Source: Oscillospiraceae bacterium
Lineage (GTDB): Bacteria; Bacillota; Clostridia; Oscillospirales; Oscillospiraceae
DNA length: 39,563 bases
Reading direction: 5' to 3'
NCBI GenBank assembly: GCA_017552325.1
Contig: JAFZQE010000021.1
Coordinates: forward strand, 1-39,563
Positions 8,184-39,476 of the stretch are shown here, one piece after another; the stretch's first letter is position 1; each line of letters starts with the position of its first letter. Made by a program: the position numbers and the translations under genes. A model generated the notes under the pieces. The model ran no database searches, was not told the origin of the DNA, and saw only the letters and a program-made list of their open reading frames with translations.

Positions 8184-8222
8184 AAAAAGAGAAGCTCTGT
8201 TTGCTCGGAGCTTCTCTTTTTT
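8183..8222 (+). terminator. Terminator of the importer operon
   Basis: A-run, then the stem AGAGAAGCTC / GAGCTTCTCT with a 10-base loop and a run of six T. Textbook intrinsic terminator immediately after the methyltransferase stop. Confidence 0.92.
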
Positions 8223-30399: not shown

Positions 30400-30867
30400 T
30401 CAGAGCTTCAGCTCCATATACCGGCGGTAGGTGACAAAGCCCTCGGCCTCGTAGAAGGCCAGCGCGCCCTGATTGAATTCCCACATGTTCAGCTCGACGC
30501 GGTCGAGCCCCTCGCTTTTCGCGTAATCCCGGATCGCGTCGATCATTTCCGAGCCGACGCCCTGCCGGCGGCAGGCCTCGTCCACGCCGAACTCGTCGAC
30601 GTCGAGATACTCCGCCGCGCGCTTGACCGGATTCTCCGGCCGGATGATCCGGCTGAGCACGGCGAAGCCGCAGATCGCGCCGCCCCGCTCGCAGACGAGG
30701 ATCTTTTTGAGCGGATCTTCAAAGATCGTCATGATGTAATCCCGGAACTCGGGGGAAAACTCCGCCCGGAAGATCTCGGGCTTTCCCTTCGCGTGCAGCT
30801 CGTTGACCTGCCGCCGCAGCTCGTTGACCCGGTCCAGATCTTCAGCCTTCGCAAATCGTATCGGCAT
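30400..30867 (-). CDS. GNAT-family N-acetyltransferase
   Basis: 155 aa. Begins MPIRFAKAEDLDRVNELR; the acetyl-CoA loop is ACRRQGVGSEMIDAI (R/Q-x-x-G-x-G/A), followed by ELNMWEFNQGALAFYEAEGF, the usual last strand-helix. The acceptor is unknown: an amine on a small molecule, antibiotic or protein. It lies 19 bases after the 2-hydroxyacid dehydrogenase and 29 before the DUF362 gene, in one transcription unit. Confidence 0.9.
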   Translation of the reverse strand: MPIRFAKAEDLDRVNELRRQVNELHAKGKPEIFRAEFSPEFRDYIMTIFEDPLKKILVCERGGAICGFAVLSRIIRPENPVKRAAEYLDVDEFGVDEACRRQGVGSEMIDAIRDYAKSEGLDRVELNMWEFNQGALAFYEAEGFVTYRRYMELKL

Positions 30868-31860: not shown

Positions 31861-32505
31861 TTATGCCGAAAAGGCGTCGATCTCCGCCTGCAGCAGGCGG
31901 AAGACCTTCGCGACCAGATAGCCGTCGGCGACGGCGTGGTTGAGCCTCACCGTGACCGGCATCAGCAGGCGGCCGTTTTCCTCCCGGTATCTGCCCCAGT
32001 TCACGATCGGCGCGAGATAGAGCCAGCCGTCCGGCAGCTCCAGGTGCAGCGCGTCGTAGGACAGCCAGGGGATATAGGAGGCGTCGAACCAGTTCGGGTG
32101 ATGCTCGGCGTCGAGCGCGTAGTCCCGCGTCTGTTTGGCCCGCTCCAGGTCGCGCTCCGCCTCCCGGTAAAAGCGCGCGTAGTCCTCATAGTAGGTCGTG
32201 TAGACCGGCGTGCAGGTCTCCGTGTCCTCGTGGAAGACGTACTGAGTCGGGTGGATCACGTCGTAGCAGATCAGCTCCTTCGTCTGCCACAGCCAGCCCA
32301 TCCGGTAATCCGGGCGGGAATTGAGCGTTTTCGTGAGGAGATACAGGAAATTCAGATAGAATTTCGTCCCGGTCCTCCCGGAGAACGCGGCCAGCTCCGT
32401 GACGTCGAGCTTCGCCGTCATCGAGACCGAGCATTTGCAGTCCTCCGAAAAATGGCGGAACACGCCCTTCCGGTAATAGCTTTCCTGATCGACGACCTGA
32501 TACAT
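31861..32505 (-). CDS. Chloramphenicol-acetyltransferase-like protein
   Basis: 214 aa, full length for the CAT (CatA) fold, with AGGAGGA upstream of ATG 32505. The active-site motif HxxxDG is intact as H190-A-V-A-D194-G in LNHAVADGYLVAK, and the substrate-side FYLNFLYLLTKTLN is typical. It transfers acetyl from CoA to a hydroxyl. Many intestinal clostridial members are not proven resistance genes, so chloramphenicol as substrate is only a possibility. It leads an operon with a 2-hydroxyacid dehydrogenase, a GNAT and a DUF362 protein, which suggests a small-molecule modification path. Confidence 0.9.
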   Translation of the reverse strand: MYQVVDQESYYRKGVFRHFSEDCKCSVSMTAKLDVTELAAFSGRTGTKFYLNFLYLLTKTLNSRPDYRMGWLWQTKELICYDVIHPTQYVFHEDTETCTPVYTTYYEDYARFYREAERDLERAKQTRDYALDAEHHPNWFDASYIPWLSYDALHLELPDGWLYLAPIVNWGRYREENGRLLMPVTVRLNHAVADGYLVAKVFRLLQAEIDAFSA

Positions 32506-32548
32506 GCCGCATTCCTCCTGCCCTCGGCGGGCCGCGTCCTTTCTCCGG

Positions 32549-32577
32549 ATTATACCCGAAAAGCGGCGCGTTTTCAA
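32549..32577 (-). promoter_or_regulatory. Promoter of the CAT-like operon
   Basis: Minus strand TTGAAA (32577-32572), 17 bp, TATAAT (32554-32549); about 44 bases before the ATG. Confidence 0.8.
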
Positions 32578-32610
32578 GCGCTTCGGCATAATACTCCCGC
32601 ACAGAGCTCG

Positions 32611-33108: not shown

Positions 33109-33873
33109 TTATCTCTTTTTGTACAGCACGAGCTCGGGATCGGCTCCGCCCTCGCCGTAAGTGCAGATCAGAATGAAGTCCGCGTTGGCGAGCACGCCGA
33201 AGCAGCGGTCGTCGCCGCGCTCCGACTCGAGCTGATTGCCGAGATAGGTCGTCCGGTCGTCGAGGAACTTCACACTGGCGCCGCCGGGCAGGGGATAGGC
33301 CAGATTGACGTAGCTGCCGACCAGGGCGTTCAGCTTGTCCAGCTTCGGCATGCCCGGGATATCCAGCGCGTTGATCTCTTCGATCAGCTGCCTCTTGAAA
33401 GCCTCGAACTGCCCGCCGTCGCCGAGCTCGTCATGCCGCCTCCAGTAATCCAGCCGGGGCAGCGACTGCTTCAGATAGGCGCGCGCCTGCTCCGGGGAAA
33501 AGCCCTCGCCGGCCATATGCCCGACGCAGACCTCGATCAGCTCGTCCATGTCGCCGTAGGTATAGGTCCCGTCGGCGTAGCACCATTTGCAGTAGTCCTC
33601 GTTGAGCGAGCCGTCGCTGTTGCGGCCGATGATCTCGTCGTCCAGCGGCATCCCGCAGCACTGGCAGATCAGCTGCCGCGGCGCGCCGAGCAGCGTGTTG
33701 ATCGAGACATGAAAGAGATTCGACAGCAGCTTCAGCGTTTCGGTATTCGGCACGGTCTCGCCGTTTTCCCAGCGCGACACCGCCTGCCGGGTCACGAAGA
33801 GCTTCTCGGCCAGCTCGTCCTGCGACAGACCGTTTCTGGTCCGCAGCTCATAAAGCACATCCTTCGTATTCAT
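33109..33873 (-). CDS. XRE regulator with zinc ribbon
   Basis: 254 aa from ATG 33873, with GGGAGG upstream. Residues 7-60 are a classical HTH (LSQDELAEKLFVTRQAVSRW). Residues 70-98 carry C70-x-C72-C73 and C95-x2-C98 (ICQCCGMPLDD, EDYCKWCYADG), matching the putative zinc-ribbon domain seen fused to such regulators. About 150 further residues follow with a helical region (RAYLKQSLPRLDYW) and a C-terminal beta-rich segment. It probably senses a metal, oxidant or ligand, and heads a two-gene unit with the nucleotidyltransferase. Confidence 0.88.
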   Translation of the reverse strand: MNTKDVLYELRTRNGLSQDELAEKLFVTRQAVSRWENGETVPNTETLKLLSNLFHVSINTLLGAPRQLICQCCGMPLDDEIIGRNSDGSLNEDYCKWCYADGTYTYGDMDELIEVCVGHMAGEGFSPEQARAYLKQSLPRLDYWRRHDELGDGGQFEAFKRQLIEEINALDIPGMPKLDKLNALVGSYVNLAYPLPGGASVKFLDDRTTYLGNQLESERGDDRCFGVLANADFILICTYGEGGADPELVLYKKR

Positions 33874-33894
33874 CAGAACACCTCCCTGCGTCCC

Positions 33895-33954: not shown

Positions 33955-34605
33955 CTATCTGACCGCTTTCAGCGCAGCGGTAGCGCCCCAGCGGTCCAAC
34001 AGCTCAACGGAAGAAAAACCCGCCTCGATCAGCGCTTCCGTCTCATGCCCGACGGTCAGGGGCGTGTCGTAGTGATAAAACGCTTCGTCCGCCAGACCCT
34101 GCTCTTTTTTCAGACGAAACAGCTCCGCGCGGCGGAAGCGTTCCTCCTCCGCGGACGACGCGAAATAATCCGTCAGAATGAACCAGCCGCCGGGCTTCAG
34201 GGCTTTCCGCAGCTTTTTGTACAGCGGTATTTTCTCCTCTTTTGTGAAGTGATGCAGCGACTCCACCGAGACCGCGGCGTCAAAGGCGTGCTCCCCGAAC
34301 GGCACGTCAAAATACGACCCGTGGATCAGGCGCAGGGATTTGCCGGGGAATTTCCTGCGCAGCTCGTCGAGCATGCCGGATGCGAGGTCGACGCCCGTCA
34401 GCTCCGCCGTGGGAACGAGTTCAAAATAATACCCGAGCTCGAGGCCCGTGCCGCATCCCAGATCGAGAACGCGCGCGCCGGGGGTCCGGGGCAGGCAGCG
34501 CGCCGTAAAGGGATAGAAGTCCCGCGCCGACTCGATGCTGCTCAATTGATGCTCTTCGTATCCGTTCAGCCTGGAATCGAAGAATTCTCCCATTTTTTCA
34601 AGCAT
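33955..34605 (-). CDS. Class I SAM-dependent methyltransferase
   Basis: 216 aa. Motif I VLDLGCGTG, then LTGVDLASGMLDELRRKF, and FDAAVSVESLHHFTKEEK, followed by ALKPGGWFILTDYF; typical of the Methyltransf_25/UbiE-like group. The N-terminal MGEFFDSRLNGYEEHQ is a common opening in clostridial members. Acceptor unknown. It follows an FMN-binding pyridoxamine-oxidase-like gene by 30 bases in one unit. Confidence 0.9.
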   Translation of the reverse strand: MLEKMGEFFDSRLNGYEEHQLSSIESARDFYPFTARCLPRTPGARVLDLGCGTGLELGYYFELVPTAELTGVDLASGMLDELRRKFPGKSLRLIHGSYFDVPFGEHAFDAAVSVESLHHFTKEEKIPLYKKLRKALKPGGWFILTDYFASSAEEERFRRAELFRLKKEQGLADEAFYHYDTPLTVGHETEALIEAGFSSVELLDRWGATAALKAVR

Positions 34606-34635: not shown

Positions 34636-35055
34636 TCACTCAACGGTAAAGCTCTCCGTTTTCAGATCGCAGTAGTATCTGCCGCTTTCCGCGCTGAATC
34701 TCAGCACGCAGTAGTCGGGATCGGTCACGCCGCCCTTGTAGAACATCGTGTCGCCCCTGCGCCAGATCATGTTTTTCGTCTCCTGATCGGTCAGCACTTC
34801 CATTTCGCCTTTCAGCATGACGCCCGTGTACCGGATCAGCCCCTTGCGATAGAAGTAGATACAGGCCTTCGGGTCGTTCCGGTACTGTTTTACTCTCATG
34901 GAAGAGGTGTTCGTCGAAAAGTAAAAGCGATGGAGGCCTTCGATCCTTCTCGGCTTCAGCATGGCCTTCACATTGGGAAAGCCCTCTTCGTCGACGGAGC
35001 AGATGAAGGCGACGCTCCGCTTCCCGATGAATTCCGCGATTTTCCTTTGATCCAT
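34636..35055 (-). CDS. Pyridoxamine 5'-phosphate oxidase-like flavin protein
   Basis: 139 aa from ATG 35055, with AAAGGG upstream. The split-barrel FMN-binding fold is suggested by VAFICSVDEEGFPNVKAML, FYFSTNTSSMRVKQYRNDPK and the strand ACIYFYRKGLIRYTGVMLKG. Stand-alone members of this family are small cytoplasmic flavin or F420/haem proteins and rarely make pyridoxal phosphate. It is the first gene of a two-gene unit with a methyltransferase, under a module promoter. Confidence 0.87.
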   Translation of the reverse strand: MDQRKIAEFIGKRSVAFICSVDEEGFPNVKAMLKPRRIEGLHRFYFSTNTSSMRVKQYRNDPKACIYFYRKGLIRYTGVMLKGEMEVLTDQETKNMIWRRGDTMFYKGGVTDPDYCVLRFSAESGRYYCDLKTESFTVE

Positions 35056-35089: not shown

Positions 35090-35118
35090 ATTATACCATG
35101 CCCCGCCGCAGAAAACAA
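35090..35118 (-). promoter_or_regulatory. Module promoter before the PNPOx-like gene
   Basis: Minus strand TTGTTT (35118-35113), 17 bp, TATAAT (35095-35090) inside GGCATGGTATAAT. The same 13-mer occurs in the promoters at 35711 and 37821. The -35 lies beside the terminator stem of the upstream gene. Confidence 0.82.
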
Positions 35119-35119
35119 G

Positions 35120-35154
35120 AAAACCTCTCCCGCCCGAAGGCAAGAGAGGTTTTT
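35120..35154 (-). terminator. Module hairpin 1 (terminator of the 35224-35676 gene)
   Basis: AAAACCTCTC (35120-35129) with GAGAGGTTTT (35144-35153). On the minus strand it runs into TTCTTGTTTT, which contains the next -35 box. A second hairpin of arms AAGGCGC/GCGCCTT lies at 35174-35209. Confidence 0.8.
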
Positions 35155-35223
35155 TAATGTGAAAATGTACCGAAAGGCGCCTTGGCCCGGACAGCCAAAG
35201 CCGCGCCTTCCGAAGCAAGGGAC

Positions 35224-35676
35224 TTATCTGTGGATATACATTCTTGTCATCTCGGGCTCGCCGTCGCCCTGAACCATACAGAGGAACTCCCAGCCGTATC
35301 TTTCATAAAAGCCCGTGTGATCGGTCACCAGATAGACCGGGCTGATCCCCTTTGACCGCAGATCGTCGACCGCCAGATTGAGCAGACGCCCGGCGATGCC
35401 TTGGCCGCGGCAGTTCTCCTCCGTATACACTGCGCAAACATTGGGATACAGATCTTTCCTGTCATGAAAGTCGTTCTCGATAACGCCCAGGCCGCCGACG
35501 ATGCTGCCGCCGTCCAGGCAGAGATACCAGCCGTATTCCGTTTCCCCGTTCAGGTAGCTTTCCATACATTCCAGATAGGCTTCCTCGGGCACGCCCCACC
35601 TGCTGTGGAACCATGCCGCGGCGCGGTCCTTCCATTCGGGCTTTTCCCGCAAAGCGATATATTTCAACTCATCCAT
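35224..35676 (-). CDS. GNAT-family N-acetyltransferase
   Basis: 150 aa from ATG 35676, with GGGGAGGA upstream. The acetyl-CoA site is NCRGQGIAGRLLNLAVDDL and the end FYERYGWEFLCMVQGDGE is typical of the family. KPEWKDRAAAWFHSRWGVPEEAY at the start resembles clostridial GNATs that lie in resistance-like or accessory gene sets. Acceptor unknown. Single-gene unit between two terminator-promoter modules. Confidence 0.88.
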   Translation of the reverse strand: MDELKYIALREKPEWKDRAAAWFHSRWGVPEEAYLECMESYLNGETEYGWYLCLDGGSIVGGLGVIENDFHDRKDLYPNVCAVYTEENCRGQGIAGRLLNLAVDDLRSKGISPVYLVTDHTGFYERYGWEFLCMVQGDGEPEMTRMYIHR

Positions 35677-35710
35677 GATGAATCCTCCCCGATCCGAATC
35701 TGTCAGGGAA

Positions 35711-35739
35711 ATTATACCATGCCGTCCGCGATAAAACAA
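35711..35739 (-). promoter_or_regulatory. Module promoter before the GNAT gene
   Basis: Minus strand TTGTTT (35739-35734), 17 bp, TATAAT (35716-35711) in GGCATGGTATAAT. Nearly identical to the one at 37821, including CCTGTTGTTTT before it. Confidence 0.82.
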
Positions 35740-35743
35740 CAGG

Positions 35744-35775
35744 AAAGCTCTCAGGCCGCGGCAAAAGAGCTTTTT
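35744..35775 (-). terminator. Module hairpin 2
   Basis: AAAGCTCT (35744-35751) with AGAGCTTT (35766-35773), running on the minus strand into CCTGTTGTTTT and the -35 of the GNAT promoter. It ends the unit that contains the 167-aa gene. Confidence 0.72.
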
Positions 35776-35835
35776 GTCGGGCAGGCAGCCCAAAGGGGAC
35801 GCGCCTGCCGACTCGGTCAGCCCGCGCGCCTTCGA

Positions 35836-36339
35836 TCAGTCCTCCGGCGCTTCAAAGGCAAAGAGGGCCTCGCCCGGGAAACGGTAAGAAGCGTCGCAAA
35901 CGTAGCCGCGGAGCCACAGGACATCGTCCACGTTGCGCAGGTACAGCCCTTTCGGAAACGCGTCGTCCCGCTCAAGAAACTCGGAAAAAACCACGGCCGC
36001 CCGATCCGGCGAAGCGTGCGTTCCGCTGAGGACGGAGTTCCGGCTTTTGGGCTGATCCGTCCAGGCCAGGCGGAGAAACAGCCCCGTGCCCGGCGGACAC
36101 GGCCTCAGGCCGAGGACCGGAAGCCGCTGAGAAATTTCATCCAGGGTCGCGCCGCCGTCAAAGCCGATCTCCCGCAGCGATACGATCACGACGGTCATCT
36201 TTCCCGGCCGGCTGAAAGAAAACTTCGGATGCGCAAAGTACTCTTCCGCATACCGGTTGACACGGATGCCGTGCGCTTCGAGCAGCGCCGGGATCCGGTC
36301 GGCAGAGAGAGGCTCAACATCCAGTTCGAATCGCTTCAT
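35836..36339 (-). CDS. Conserved protein of unknown function, 167 aa
   Basis: Start ATG 36339 with AAAGGAG 7-13 bases upstream. It has no signal peptide or membrane segment. Recognisable blocks are ALLEAHGIRVNRYAEEYFAH, TLDEISQRLPVLGLRPCPPG, SGTHASPDRAAVVFSEFLE and FPKGLYLRNVDDVLWLRGYV. I believe these recur in small Firmicute hypothetical proteins, but I know no function. It lies 67 bases after the P-loop gene, with a degenerate module arm between them and no promoter of its own that I can see. Confidence 0.8.
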   Translation of the reverse strand: MKRFELDVEPLSADRIPALLEAHGIRVNRYAEEYFAHPKFSFSRPGKMTVVIVSLREIGFDGGATLDEISQRLPVLGLRPCPPGTGLFLRLAWTDQPKSRNSVLSGTHASPDRAAVVFSEFLERDDAFPKGLYLRNVDDVLWLRGYVCDASYRFPGEALFAFEAPED

Positions 36340-36353
36340 ACGTCCCGCTCCTT

Positions 36354-36382
36354 TCAACAAAGAAACCCCTTTCGCCCCGGCG
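36354..36382 (-). repeat. Degenerate module arm
   Basis: CAACAAAGAAACCCCTTT here matches the left arm of the full module hairpin at 38372, but the loop and right arm have diverged (GTCTGTCTC remains near 36400). It abuts the ribosome site of the 167-aa gene. Looks like a worn copy of the terminator-promoter module. Confidence 0.6.
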
Positions 36383-36406
36383 GACGTCTGCGCGAGCCGG
36401 TCTGTC

Positions 36407-37039
36407 TCAGCAAAGGCCGAAAGATTTTTCAACAAGCGCCAGGGTTTGCTGTATGCTCCGACTGTCGTCTCTGTGAACCACGGGAAAACCGGAGTGAAGA
36501 AGATTGTCGTAGTTTTCCTGCGAATTGATCAGCATCAGGCCTTTCCTGTAGTTTTCCATGGCCTGTTCGGGGTCGGGTTCTTCCATGATCAGGCGATATA
36601 AAAACTGTTTTTCCCGGTCCGGGCGCTCAAAGAAGCGTCTAACGGAGACATCCGGATCGGCCAGCATGATCAGCACATGATCAGGACGGGCTATCGTCTT
36701 CAGGGTTTCGATTGAGATATTGGTGTCGACAAAGACAGGCTTCCCCTGATTGCGCAGCTCTTCCAGGATCCGCAGCTCCAGTATTTCGCACTCTTTTGAT
36801 GCGCCGTCGATCCAGGCCTTGTACTGTTCCGGCGTCCTTCTGATGAAATCGTGCCAGTCTTCCAGATCCCGCGTATATGTCACACAGGGGAACTCCTCCC
36901 TGCTTAATCCCGGCAGCAGGGCGTCGTGATAGTTCTCCTCACAGAGTATCCCGTCATATTTCTCCGCGAGCAGCTTTACCATCGTGCTTTTTCCCGCATA
37001 GGCTGTCCCGGTGATAAAATAGGCATTGTCAAATCTCAT
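36407..37039 (-). CDS. P-loop ATP-binding protein (kinase/AAA-like)
   Basis: 210 aa from ATG 37039, with CGGAGGA upstream. A Walker A motif GTAYAGKSTM begins at residue 11. PVFVDTNISIETL and HVLIMLADPDVSVRRFFER resemble the Walker B and lid regions of small-molecule kinases (shikimate/gluconate kinase-like or AAA_18 fold). The extended Asp/Glu-rich middle (TRDLEDWHDFIRRTPEQYKA) is specific to this group. It probably phosphorylates a small metabolite. It follows the methyltransferase by 31 bases in the same unit. Confidence 0.85.
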   Translation of the reverse strand: MRFDNAYFITGTAYAGKSTMVKLLAEKYDGILCEENYHDALLPGLSREEFPCVTYTRDLEDWHDFIRRTPEQYKAWIDGASKECEILELRILEELRNQGKPVFVDTNISIETLKTIARPDHVLIMLADPDVSVRRFFERPDREKQFLYRLIMEEPDPEQAMENYRKGLMLINSQENYDNLLHSGFPVVHRDDSRSIQQTLALVEKSFGLC

Positions 37040-37070
37040 GATATCCTCCGCAGCGTGTGGAATAACGACA

Positions 37071-37787
37071 TCATTCCTTTCTGACATAGATCAGAAGGAA
37101 ATTCAGAATATCATACAGCCCTCTGTCTAAAAACGACTGATCACGCACGCCGTATTCATGCCCGGATTCAAACCATTCCTTCCAGGCAATATCGAAGCAT
37201 TCCGCTTCCTTCACTTCGATCCGGCACCGGTCTTTGCACTCGTCCTTCAGCAGCTTCTCCCACCAGGCGGCGGTCTTGAAAAGCTCCGCATCTTCGCCTT
37301 CCGCCCATGTCTCAAAAAGCTGTTTCAGCTCGCCCTGCGGCTGTTCCTTCAGTCCGGGAACAGCGATCATCACAGAGCCGCCTTTTTTGACATACGGCAA
37401 GATTTTCCCGGTGAATATGCCTTCTTTGCAGCCAAAGTAATGATAGGCGTCCACGCTGACGACGGCGTCGAAATACTCCTGCGCAAAGGGCATATCCATG
37501 GCGTCCCCATGGATCGGTATGATCTTGTCCTCCAGACCGTTATCCCGTATCCTCAGGTAGTTTTCCGTTGCGGGGATCCAGAGATCAAATGCGTAAACGT
37601 GCTCCGCATCCGTTTCGTTTGCAATAAACAGCGACGTCAGAGCGTAACCGCATCCCAGATCCAGCGTTCGGTGAAGGCAAACGTTTTCAGGCCTTCTGCA
37701 GATCAATTCATCAAGCAGCCGGAACGAGTTCGGGCCCATCAGATATTCTTTTGTGAAATACTTTTTGTACTTTTCCAGATTGCTCAT
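37071..37787 (-). CDS. Class I SAM-dependent methyltransferase
   Basis: 238 aa from ATG 37787, with GCGGAGG upstream; the longer frame runs back through the module and is not coding. Motif I is TLDLGCGYALTSLF; AFDLWIPATENYLRI and IPIHGDAMDMPFAQEYFDAV follow, then SVDAYHYFGC and YVKKGGSVMIAVPG. The YHYFGC block is shared by a cyclopropane-synthase-like clostridial subgroup. Acceptor unknown. First gene of a unit that includes the P-loop ATPase and possibly the 167-aa protein. Confidence 0.9.
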   Translation of the reverse strand: MSNLEKYKKYFTKEYLMGPNSFRLLDELICRRPENVCLHRTLDLGCGYALTSLFIANETDAEHVYAFDLWIPATENYLRIRDNGLEDKIIPIHGDAMDMPFAQEYFDAVVSVDAYHYFGCKEGIFTGKILPYVKKGGSVMIAVPGLKEQPQGELKQLFETWAEGEDAELFKTAAWWEKLLKDECKDRCRIEVKEAECFDIAWKEWFESGHEYGVRDQSFLDRGLYDILNFLLIYVRKE

Positions 37788-37820
37788 AAACGCCTCCGCA
37801 GATCCCGTATTTTCAAAATG

Positions 37821-37849
37821 ATTATACCATGCCGAGTACGGCAAAACAA
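37821..37849 (-). promoter_or_regulatory. Module promoter before the methyltransferase
   Basis: Minus strand TTGTTT (37849-37844), 17 bp, TATAAT (37826-37821) in GGCATGGTATAAT. The -35 overlaps the outer part of the hairpin arm that ends the previous unit. Confidence 0.84.
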
Positions 37850-37896
37850 CAGGAAACCTCTTTTGCCCAGACAGACAAAAGAGGTTTCTTTGTTGT
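37846..37896 (-). terminator. Module hairpin 3
   Basis: Core stem AAACCTCTTTTG (37854-37865) with CAAAAGAGGTTT (37876-37887), a 10-base loop, and an extended foot ACAACA/TGTTGT. It ends the 102-aa gene unit and overlaps the next -35 box. Confidence 0.82.
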
Positions 37897-37935
37897 GAAA
37901 GAGCGCGTAAAAGTGCACCAGGCCATAGAAAGAAC
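37863..37935. repeat. 73-bp perfect direct repeat, copy A
   Basis: Identical over 73 bases to 38390-38462, in the same orientation, 527 bases apart. It covers the hairpin loop and right arm plus a tail with GAAAGAGCGCGTAAAAG. A related 30-base unit follows in tandem (37928-37957). The two copies bracket the 102-aa gene. Confidence 0.95.
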
Positions 37936-37991
37936 TCCGAAAAGTACACCGGTGCAACACAAAGAAATCTGCGTCCAACATTAAATAAAAA

Positions 37992-38300
37992 TCATAGAAA
38001 CAACTGGATCATTAAAAATCCTTCAAGTAAAAAACTGGCTTTTCCATTATGGTCAGAGGCAAGATACTCCTCAATCGGACTACCGAAAGTCAACCAATTA
38101 TCCGAATAATTATCGAGAAGAGTTCGTATGTCTTGTTTATTGTCGATCCTGATTAGAACAGTATAGACTGACTCTATCTTCCAGTATTCCTCACATTGAA
38201 TAATTGAATACTCTATTCCGCTGATCTCTGCAAGAGAAATCCCTACTTTAGTTATTGCGTCTTCTCTTGATATTCCAGAGATAAAAAACTTCATTTTCAT
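37992..38300 (-). CDS. Hypothetical protein, 102 aa
   Basis: Unrecognised. Soluble, AT-rich gene with start ATG 38300 (ATG 38294 is also possible) and a poor ribosome site (AAGTGG). MKFFISGISREDAITKVGIS, then EYWKIESVYTVLIRIDN and a Trp/Leu-rich segment NWLTFGSPIEEYLAS. The beta-rich pattern suggests a small compact fold, possibly an immunity-type or single-domain protein. Its base composition differs from the older chromosomal genes to the left. It is a single-gene unit with a module promoter, bracketed by the 73-bp repeats, and so could be gained or lost as a piece. Confidence 0.7.
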   Translation of the reverse strand: MKMKFFISGISREDAITKVGISLAEISGIEYSIIQCEEYWKIESVYTVLIRIDNKQDIRTLLDNYSDNWLTFGSPIEEYLASDHNGKASFLLEGFLMIQLFL

Positions 38301-38346
38301 ATTTGCACCACTTGTAAATTATCCTTAATCCCAGCTTGTCAAGAGG

Positions 38347-38375
38347 ATTATACCACAGCTAAGCGGGTCGAGCAA
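38347..38375 (-). promoter_or_regulatory. Module promoter before the 102-aa gene
   Basis: Minus strand TTGCTC (38375-38370), 17 bp, TATAAT (38352-38347) with TGG ahead of it. The -35 overlaps the foot of module hairpin 4. Confidence 0.78.
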
Positions 38376-38423
38376 CAAAGAAACCCCTCTTGCCCAGACA
38401 GACAAAAGAGGTTTCTTTGTTGT
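38372..38423 (-). terminator. Module hairpin 4
   Basis: Arms 38372-38392 and 38403-38423 pair over 21 positions with two mismatches and one G-U, 10-base loop CCCAGACAGA. It ends the lipoprotein gene unit on the minus strand and leads into the promoter of the 102-aa gene. Confidence 0.8.
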
Positions 38424-38462
38424 GAAAGAGCGCGTAAAAGTGCACCAGGCCATAGAAAGAAC
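38390..38462. repeat. 73-bp perfect direct repeat, copy B
   Basis: Second copy of the repeat at 37863-37935. Tandem 30-base units follow each other at 38424-38453 and 38455-38484 (GAAAGAGCGCGTAAAAG... and GAAAGAACGCCTAAAAG..., 24 of the first 27 bases equal). Confidence 0.95.
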
Positions 38463-38513
38463 GCCTAAAAGTACACCAGGCATCTTGTCTTCGGGATGTG
38501 TTTCATAATACAG

Positions 38514-38975
38514 TTAATTGCCTTGCGCATCTTTTTCATTGGCTACCTGAAACTGTGTGAACCCATTGCCATCATTGTTGTATCGCCAAGTGACACCAAT
38601 ATAGAAGACGCTTTCATCAAACTCAACTTTGTAGTCAGCCTTAATGAAATTGTTATCGATATTGCTTCCTGTATATTTATCCCACTGAATGATTTCCAAG
38701 GTATATCCTTCTGTAACAGGAAAGTACTCATATATTTGTTCCGCAATCAAGTCAAAATTATCTTTGTCTGTTACACCTGGGTAAAGCATAGAATATGCCC
38801 CGTCAAAGTCGCGTGCGGCGATATAATCTATCATTTCTGCAACTCTTCCTTTTAACTGATTAACATCTTCATCACTATCGATAGATATTGGGAGCCCTGC
38901 TTTACAGCCAACACAAAAGATGACACATGCAAAAACAATAAGTATTGGAGTAAGAATTCTCAATAAACCTTTCAT
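38514..38975 (-). CDS. Small lipoprotein, unknown
   Basis: 153 aa from ATG 38975, with AAGGGG upstream. The hydrophobic leader LLRILTPILIVFACVIF ends in FCVGC, a lipobox-like site (Cys24; Cys at -3 is slightly irregular). The mature part has the layout of an NTF2-like/DUF4878 small lipoprotein domain: VAEMIDYIAARDFDGAYSML, then YTLEIIQWDKYTG, and DYKVEFDESVFYIGVTWRY. Genes of this type are often surface proteins of unknown role. AT-rich. Single gene with its own promoter, ended by module hairpin 4. Confidence 0.8.
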   Translation of the reverse strand: MKGLLRILTPILIVFACVIFCVGCKAGLPISIDSDEDVNQLKGRVAEMIDYIAARDFDGAYSMLYPGVTDKDNFDLIAEQIYEYFPVTEGYTLEIIQWDKYTGSNIDNNFIKADYKVEFDESVFYIGVTWRYNNDGNGFTQFQVANEKDAQGN

Positions 38976-39104: not shown

Positions 39105-39181
39105 CAATTCCGTGTAGTTTAATCCTTACCCGACTGGATATTTTTATAGTGAATATCCGGTTCAAGTCCTGCCTCTTAAAC
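39105..39181. other. Gene-free stretch with short hairpin and T-arm-like sequence
   Basis: No gene seen. GGATATT (39136-39142) pairs with AATATCC (39152-39158). It is followed by CCGGTTCAAGTCCTGCC, which looks like a tRNA T-arm with one broken pair. It could be a remnant of a tRNA 3' end or chance. Confidence 0.35.
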
Positions 39182-39222
39182 ACTTTTGTTCTTTCTTTGC
39201 GGAGCAAAGAAAGAACAAAAGT
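39182..39222. repeat. Perfect 19-bp inverted repeat
   Basis: 39182-39200 and 39204-39222 are exact reverse complements with loop GGA. The right arm continues into AAAAGTACACC, matching the tail of the tandem repeat units near 37928 and 38455. It may be a terminator or a recombination-type site. It lies beyond the tRNA on its 3' side. Confidence 0.7.
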
Positions 39223-39345
39223 ACACCTGTGTTTTCTGCCGTTTTCGGGGCTTGAACGCAAAAAACCGGGCTCCAAAGCAGCCGATCGACCACTCCGAAG
39301 CCCGATTTCACCGTATTCTGCCCTTTTTTGCCCAAAATGCAAGAA

Positions 39346-39380
39346 GAAACCTCTCTTGCCCCGTAGACAAAAGAGGTTTC
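39346..39380 (-). terminator. Terminator of the tRNA-Ser, same family as the modules
   Basis: GAAACCTCTCTTG (39346-39358) with CAAAAGAGGTTTC (39368-39380). Only five bases separate it from the tRNA CCA. On the minus strand it is followed by TTCTTGCATTTT. Confidence 0.82.
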
Positions 39381-39385
39381 TTTGT

Positions 39386-39476
39386 TGGCGGAGGGTGCAG
39401 GATTCGAACCCGCGTGGGCTTTCGCCCTAACGGTTTTCAAGACCGGTCGGCAGAGACCCAACTGCCGGAATTTGAC
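39386..39476 (-). tRNA. tRNA-Ser(UGA) lacking a matching 5' acceptor strand
   Basis: On the minus strand the sequence has a D-arm (CGGC/GCCG), an anticodon loop CTTGAAA (anticodon UGA), the long variable arm of serine tRNAs (GGGCGAAAGCCC), a T-arm GCGGG-TTCGAAT-CCTGC, and an encoded CCA after the acceptor strand ACCCTCCG. The 5' acceptor strand should read GGAGGGT but is GTCAAAT; only pairs 1-72 and 7-66 can form. So everything from position 8 onward is intact and positions 1-7 are foreign. This fits an integration scar (attachment-site copy) more than a working tRNA. The window ends 87 bases further. Confidence 0.75.

Follow-up and report, generated by a model that had tools for sequence, protein, structure and literature searches.

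What are the repeated joints that separate short genes near one end of an Oscillospiraceae contig, and do they bound units that move? The question is raised by contig JAFZQE010000021.1 (assembly GCA_017552325.1), whose 39,563 nucleotides (nt) form the stretch analyzed here, called the window. The joints are most probably the ends of a family of mobile, promoter-bearing, integron-like gene cassettes targeted to tRNA genes. Sequence comparison supports this by two recurrent ends, a fixed 2-nt spacing from the CCA end of tRNA genes, the stacking of units in arrays, the recurrence of one cassette at several sites, and covariation in the hairpin of the left end.

An earlier reading of the window from its letters alone (the sequence-only reading) had described four minus-strand joints of one design, at which a hairpin runs into a promoter. 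All four are present, at 35090, 35711, 37821 and 38347, each with the extended -10 element TGGTATAAT placed 17 bp behind TTGTTT or TTGCTC within the T-rich tail of the hairpin, and three of the four read GGCATGGTATAAT as stated. Two of them are eroded. Two joints had been called nearly identical over about 33 bases; the near-identity holds, but the length does not, as the real repeat (37853–37950 and 38380–38477) covers 98 bp with 96% identity. It includes the hairpin and a second element that the sequence-only reading did not name. The hairpin and promoter form the left end (L-end) of the downstream unit, and the right end (R-end) is a separate repeat element. The R-ends at 38421–38477 and 37894–37950 had been missed, as had the 3' fragment of a tRNA-Ser gene at about 39386–39450, and the degenerate hairpin arm reported at 36354 is only a weak L-end match (nhmmer, 16 bits).

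A unit consists, in order, of the L-end hairpin, a promoter-like site, a gene (usually one, and short), the R-end and two bases, followed by the next L-end or by a hairpin resembling a native terminator. The L-end hairpin reads NN-AAAGAAACCTCTTTTGTCTACC..GGCAAAAGAGGTTTTCTT and contains TTTTGTCTACC, and the R-end is formed by two direct repeats GTGYACTTTTNNGCGYNCTT, 30–31 bp apart, with a final CA. In the window the following features were recognized:

About 39386–39450, minus strand: 3' part of a tRNA-Ser gene, ending GCCA, anchor of the array (sequence read; anticodon TGA by eye).
39337–39383, minus strand: L-end hairpin of cassette A, 2 bases behind the tRNA end (nhmmer 50 bits, covariance model 61.6 bits, both models trained with this copy).
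38514–38975, minus strand: gene of cassette A, lipoprotein-like by eye, without Pfam match, GC content 0.37.
38421–38477, minus strand: R-end of cassette A, two GTGYACTTTTNNGCGYTCTT repeats 31 bp apart, ending CACA (58 bits).
38371–38418, minus strand: L-end hairpin of cassette B (covariance model 61.7 bits).
38347–38375, minus strand: promoter-like site of cassette B, TTGCTC-17-TATAAT with extended -10 (sequence).
37992–38300, minus strand: gene of cassette B, 102 amino acids, without Pfam match.
37894–37950, minus strand: R-end of cassette B (52 bits).
37844–37891, minus strand: L-end hairpin of cassette C (covariance model 63.4 bits).
37821–37849, minus strand: promoter-like site of cassette C, TTGTTT-17-TATAAT (sequence).
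37071–37787, minus strand: gene 1 of cassette C, methyltransferase (PF13649).
36407–37042, minus strand: gene 2 of cassette C, kinase-like P-loop protein (PF13238, below the curated cut-off).
36353–36400, minus strand: eroded L-end of unit D, right half of the hairpin (nhmmer 16 bits).
35836–36339, minus strand: gene of unit D, without Pfam match.
35736–35777, minus strand: eroded L-end hairpin of unit E (covariance model 21.7 bits, E 0.007).
35711–35739, minus strand: promoter-like site of unit E (sequence).
35224–35676, minus strand: gene of unit E, GNAT acetyltransferase (PF00583).
35113–35156, minus strand: L-end hairpin of unit F (covariance model 32.8 bits, E 1.4e-5).
35090–35118, minus strand: promoter-like site of unit F (sequence).
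34636–35055, minus strand: gene of unit F, pyridoxamine 5'-phosphate oxidase-like flavin protein (PF01243).
33955–34605, minus strand: methyltransferase gene, probably a former cassette (homologues behind L-ends).
33109–33876, minus strand: regulator with helix-turn-helix and zinc ribbon, probably a former cassette (homologue in a complete cassette).

The window is an old array, with the fresh cassettes A and B beside the tRNA fragment and older units with eroded ends further on. The GC content of its genes, 0.37 and 0.35 near the tRNA and rising to 0.51–0.62 further away, fits an ageing of the units. The tRNA-Ser fragment lacks the 5' acceptor strand and the contig ends at 39563; ARAGORN found no complete tRNA at this fragment. 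Rfam gave no match in the window at the gathering threshold. Elsewhere in the same genome the hairpin stands directly behind genes of tRNA-Leu (contigs C62 and C43), tRNA-Pro (C14) and tRNA-Val (C20).

The link to tRNA genes was examined with 120 distinct L-ends scoring at least 30 bits over the fetched loci, after 11 duplicates and two edge cases had been excluded. In 33 of these, exactly 2 nt separate the L-end from the CCA of an intact tRNA gene upstream, with 19 anticodons represented (Leu, Ser, Val, Asn, Arg, Pro, Gln, Glu, Ala, Tyr, Trp and Met). Another 36 lie behind the R-end of another cassette and nine, classified by pattern, behind a tRNA 3' fragment. The remaining 42 were left unclassed by the script; when read by eye, about 18 of them stand behind a CCA fragment resembling a tRNA and about 15 behind an R-end that has degenerated. 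The bases CA stand two bases before the L-end in 112 of the 120. The two nucleotides in between, behind tRNAs as well as between cassettes, are mostly TC, AC or TG, and those beside native terminators mostly AA, TA or GC. An L-end comes next after 36 of 78 R-ends. After the other 42 stands a different sequence, in most cases a hairpin like a native terminator; by eye, at least the case of L169 among these 42 is an L-end as well.

A less selected set consisted of the 30 loci found by the class-wide search with the L-end covariance model, 28 of them outside the genome of the window. A distinct L-end was present in 22 of the 28 (five loci gave no L-end call and L325 only repeated the L-end of L307), and 15 of these 22 start 1–5 nt behind an intact tRNA gene, including L300, which looks like L136 again; two more stand behind a tRNA fragment. 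Several of the 15 are non-coding relatives of the L-end and so support the link between hairpin and tRNA more than that between coding cassette and tRNA.

At ten loci (L061, L063, L066, L098, L176, L180, L185, L190, L196 and L198) an intact tRNA and a duplicated tRNA 3' fragment were seen only about 130–450 bp apart, with a spacer that opens with a terminator-like hairpin. Such short spacers are likely to be what is left of integrated elements, or else very small independent elements.

The covariance model of the L-end hairpin was trained on 90 copies, three of them from the window, and finds these three (39339, 38373 and 37846) at 61–63 bits. Matches outside the training set are 35113 (32.8 bits) and 35736 (21.7 bits), the latter hardly better than an unrelated window hairpin at 8187 (20.1 bits, E 0.017). 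Across 90 distinct L-ends, 91.5% of the cells of the 16-pair stem hold standard pairs. Eight of the 16 pairs have changed on both sides, with 30 such cells against 6.4 in shuffles. This level was reached by none of 500 shuffles, a count that is not a probability because the sequences are related, and sliding the partners lowers all measures. The pairing is maintained while the letters of TTTTGTCTACC stay fixed, a pattern that would be expected if both RNA structure and DNA sequence were selected in the L-end. Behind the hairpin, TATAAT occurs in the expected stretch of 59 of the 120 L-ends, compared with 25 of 2000 random stretches.

Two further hairpin groups were noticed. A second kind of L-end, seen in the window at 39126–39383 (minus strand) and also in L060, L096, L115, L168, L173, L181, L198, L322 and L327, is followed by about 230 nt of conserved non-coding sequence. 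This block includes a GC-rich terminator-like hairpin and a palindrome with GGTGTACTTTT, followed by GGAGGCRGGAYTTGAACC, where conservation stops and which resembles an inverted tRNA T-arm/acceptor sequence. The other group shares TTTGTCTACC, stands mostly behind tRNA ends and runs into palindromic arrays of AATGATATCC.., AATGATGTTTGCC.. or CAACTAAGTGTTCCGC.. (L055, L065, L143, L171, L297, L299, L303, L304, L307 and L311). Its hairpins are possibly non-coding relatives of the L-end.

That the units move is indicated by comparison of 77 cassettes with both borders, the right border being an R-end match or the next L-end, and one locus being counted twice. Their median length is 809 bp (412–2248), and their GC content is 0.45 against 0.55 in the rest of the locus, being lower in 71 of the 77. 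Tandem arrays occur as loci with at least two L-ends in a row. Twelve groups of related cassettes (70–100% identity) have members in at least two places; the identity of 100% belongs to L087/L170, a single locus fetched twice. The cassettes of L131, L098 and L101 are 97–98% identical, but upstream of them lie an R-end, a 3' fragment of tRNA-Gln and tRNA-Glu, respectively, and their outer flanks have an identity of 0.33–0.50. Other near-identical pairs are L082/L092 (99%), L168/L086 (99%) and L139/L166 (98%). Within pairs the right ends often diverge more than the bodies (0.46–0.97), in L082/L092 by the loss of one repeat, and some pairs have one outer flank alike (up to 0.90), this being the R-end or L-end of a neighbour. 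The two nucleotides before the L-end vary among copies of one cassette. Left and right 2 nt agree in only two of 12 single-cassette loci, and they disagree also in L072 and L079, which have odd ends; target duplication is therefore not indicated.

The suggestion of the sequence-only reading that the window holds a cassette-building system without integron attC sites is thus supported: the same two ends occur in dozens of draft genomes, the order of units varies, different tRNAs lie upstream, and one cassette is found in unrelated surroundings with up to 99% DNA identity. It had named a fixed gene order in relatives, with the module at random single genes, as the observation that would speak against it, and the comparison shows otherwise.

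For four genes of the window, relatives stand as cassettes elsewhere. A protein 79% identical to that of 33109–33876 forms a complete cassette, from L-end to R-end, in L078; proteins 75% and 77% identical to that of 33955–34605 lie 59 bp behind L-ends in L133 and L176; one 58% identical to that of 35836–36339 lies 61 bp behind an L-end in L192; and one 88% identical to that of 37992–38300 is a complete cassette in L113, the second behind tRNA-Val. Weaker cases are 31861–32508, whose homologue (69%) follows an R-end of L130 at a distance of 239 bp, and 30400–30867, 55% identical to a gene 55 bp behind an R-end in L101; these two homologues may be host genes adjoining a cassette. The protein of 31861–32589 (minus strand), with this homologue in L130, is of the chloramphenicol acetyltransferase family (PF00302).

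The cargo was surveyed by Pfam scans of 50 and 53 proteins, each giving the 25 commonest families, among proteins that include five of the window, host neighbours and some outside two-ended units. GNAT acetyltransferases dominate, with 16 and 14 matches to PF00583, and the rest include Cro/C1 regulators, methyltransferases, Nudix, HAD, HIT, phosphorylase and phosphotransferase-like proteins. Short proteins at L143:4819–5265 and L171:5419–5667 resemble by eye the four-helix family of 23S rRNA intervening-sequence proteins (IVP), and PF05635 was matched by one protein of the 50-protein scan.

A scan of GTDB contigs for the R-end repeat yielded 67 stretches, of which 43 were judged true and 24 chance by the presence of a second repeat and a hairpin after it. 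The record titles of 36 of the 43 name Clostridia, Clostridiales, Oscillospiraceae or Ruminococcaceae, and those of the other seven Solobacterium, Bacillota, Eggerthellaceae, Ruminococcus, Saccharofermentans, Christensenella and Mageeibacillus; gut compartments of goat, sheep or buffalo appear in many of the titles. One of the 43, L112 (RUG12904), agrees in its match positions with L066, a contig from the genus of the window, and the two are probably one record. With the window junction as query, eight of 20 genomes matched, among them the own genome and six of 12 genus relatives. The L-end motif with at most three mismatches was found in 47 of 53 genomes, 39 of which had been reached through R-ends, and the reversed-pattern control in none of the 53; among the genus relatives it was present in seven of 12, in one of them at three mismatches only. 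The L-end covariance model matched 24 of 391 genomes drawn from the class, own genome included, a count that contains non-coding relatives or unlinked hairpins. The distribution is therefore patchy. A strict R-end pair pattern, whose gap range excluded one R-end variant, was found in two of 295 genomes of the order. In a viral collection the R-end gave one chance match and the junction pattern none, and one cassette was located behind the distal tRNA fragment of a provirus (L327). A 651-base stretch of the window had no match in plasmids or phages.

How such cassettes would move can be outlined as follows. The L-end hairpin starts the cassette and would also be the terminator of anything upstream, and the T-rich tail would supply the -35 of the cassette's own extended -10 promoter. 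One or two short accessory genes follow, and then the R-end of two direct repeats ending in CA. Insertion would separate the CCA end of a tRNA gene, or of a 3' fragment of one, from the tRNA's own terminator, or would occur behind an earlier R-end. As the L-end would bring a terminator, tRNA transcription would still be ended after insertion, and as it would bring a promoter, the gene could be expressed anywhere. In the simplest model a circle with the junction R-end, CA, NN, L-end recombines with the tRNA end of CCA, NN and the A-rich start of the terminator, with strand exchange around the CA common to both. A recombinase acting in trans would recognize the R-end/L-end junction (the att site of the circle) and the T-arm/acceptor end of tRNA genes. 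The cases with tRNA 3' fragments suggest that a target of about 20–26 bp, from T-arm and acceptor, would suffice, provided that the fragments did not arise after insertion. In L327 a provirus occupies tRNA-Pro and the cassette lies outside it, so that a later phage integration would produce the fragment class.

Several observations weigh against mobile cassettes moved in this way. Nearly all compared sequences are draft metagenome-assembled genomes. About nine of the 120 L-ends follow, by eye, neither a tRNA end nor a recognizable R-end, and five of the 22 in the less selected set stand behind neither a tRNA nor a tRNA fragment. No pair of occupied and empty sites with shared synteny was found; a tRNA-Leu locus of relatives was considered as an empty site and has ordinary terminators by eye, but its flanking genes are not syntenic. 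The closest homologue fetched for 35224–35676 (80% identical, L167) lies beyond a tRNA, outside any recognized cassette, and the 45% identical homologue of the kinase-like gene lies 991 bp behind an L-end of L173, past another gene. The position of the newest cassette at the tRNA was rejected as a general rule, since the first cassette has the lower GC content in only three of ten tRNA-anchored arrays outside the window and not in the other seven. Among the 25 commonest Pfam families of each scan no cassette-borne recombinase appeared; the one exception is a serine recombinase of L173, where 6 kb are inserted between two L-ends. Among the tyrosine recombinases of 12 cassette-rich genomes, just two groups were present in more than four, a XerC-like one (seven genomes) and XerD (six). 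Serine recombinases were absent from one (genomes being counted and proteins not clustered), and IS110 from 11 (PF01548 in one). Not one of the three families occurs in all 12 carriers in a form specific to carriers. The drafts are incomplete, and an enzyme from another element need not occur in every carrier.

Two tested members of one Xer group pass the XerD equivalog cut-off, and two of the other group score best against XerC, below its cut-off. Of the PF00589 matches, four Xer-type proteins were compared with the integron-integrase model, and none comes near its cut-off (best 133.8 of 265 bits). The integrases of L081, L100 and contig C12 of the window's own genome were rejected as the cassette enzyme, as they lie outside cassettes and by eye belong to ordinary tRNA-integrated elements.

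Among other explanations, the cassettes could be real but spread only by homologous recombination between their repeated ends, for instance once DNA has been taken up, or carried along by phages or integrative and conjugative elements (ICEs) in the same tRNAs, with no dedicated recombinase. That no common recombinase was found agrees with this, the L-ends and R-ends are long enough for exchange, and integrases of other elements and tRNA 3' fragments stand beside some arrays. We nevertheless regard it as unlikely, because a first insertion at exactly 2 nt behind tRNAs of 19 anticodons would need a site-specific step, and the cassette borders in the clearest pairs are sharp.

The host XerC/XerD pair could instead move the cassettes, as has been proposed for pdif modules, and these are indeed the tyrosine-recombinase groups shared most widely by the cassette-rich genomes. 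However, no member of either group was recovered in five of the 12 drafts (G314, G322, G326, G331 and G344), where missing contigs, the filter or real absence may be responsible, and the R/L junction contains by eye no 28-bp site like the dif consensus, no dif search having been made. Host Xer recombination is accordingly an improbable explanation. More improbable still is an origin as non-autonomous derivatives of a single-strand transposon of the IS200/IS605 type with the left hairpin as recognition structure: a conserved hairpin beside a fixed border and the missing target duplication would suit it, but the right end is a direct repeat and not a hairpin, and the targets are tRNA ends. No transposase appeared among the commonest Pfam families of the scans, Y1 transposases not having been searched for. 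Ordinary genome-specific punctuation, that is a common terminator whose T-tract doubles as -35, multiplied by local duplication with nothing mobile, is the least probable: the hairpin is terminator-like with covariation, and of the 30 copies of TGGTATAAT in the own genome only eight stand behind such a hairpin and 22 do not (printed contexts read by eye), but many genomes have this hairpin at a constant distance behind tRNA ends and together with a separate R-end, and the units that it bounds can be almost identical where their flanks are unrelated.

We think it rather probable that the tRNA-targeted cassettes represent a new gene-capture system independent of integrons, in which a recombinase in trans would use the 3' end of essentially any tRNA gene of rumen Clostridia. 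The T-arm/acceptor DNA would then serve as a universal attachment site, and the whole set of tRNA loci of a genome as a distributed cassette platform. In the open-access literature no description of such cassettes was found, and within that scope the kind of system can be called new. Integrons are the textbook collectors of cassettes, and a second, unrelated system with tRNA insertion points and promoters of its own would, if true, help to explain how rumen and gut Clostridia take up single accessory genes such as acetyltransferases, phosphotransferases and regulators. The L-end/R-end signature could be used to find such genes in metagenomes, and the question is raised of an enzyme that recognizes tRNA ends in general.

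Compared with known systems, the short target-site duplication of Tn7-like and other DDE transposons is not seen, nor is the DEDD recombinase of the bridge-RNA elements IS110/IS1111 in more than one of the 12 carriers. Elements of the IS200/IS605 type have hairpin ends and insert without target duplication. Their hairpin-ended derivatives share both traits with the cassettes, but here the other end is a direct repeat and the cargo genes have a promoter-like site. Islands, prophages, ICEs and satellites with tyrosine integrases (tycheposons included) use tRNA 3' ends as the cassettes do, but the cassettes are not tied to one tRNA, no integrase of their own was seen among the Pfam families shown for cassette proteins, and the tRNA 3' part is not repeated at the far border. 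The pdif modules of Acinetobacter, with Xer sites, are gene modules that lie between short recombination sites and are apparently mobile without a recombinase of their own (PMC7399989). The cassettes resemble them in this, but have an L-end hairpin and R-end direct repeats as ends and chromosomal tRNA ends as targets.

Integrons have the integrase IntI, an attI site beside intI and attC sites with a GTTRRRY / RYYYAAC core at the crossover. The R/L junctions show no such core and read by eye CA-NN-AAAG, with NN mostly TC or AC. Unlike integron cassettes the present units carry a promoter-like site and a terminator hairpin, and instead of one attI they occupy the 3' ends of tRNAs of many anticodons in several dispersed arrays. 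The family is integron-like in its working, yet agrees with integrons in none of the integron-specific sequence tests applied. What it shares with them is the organization: small, independent, mostly one-gene units in tandem arrays, an end resembling a recombination site, accessory cargo, and no integrase seen inside the cassette.

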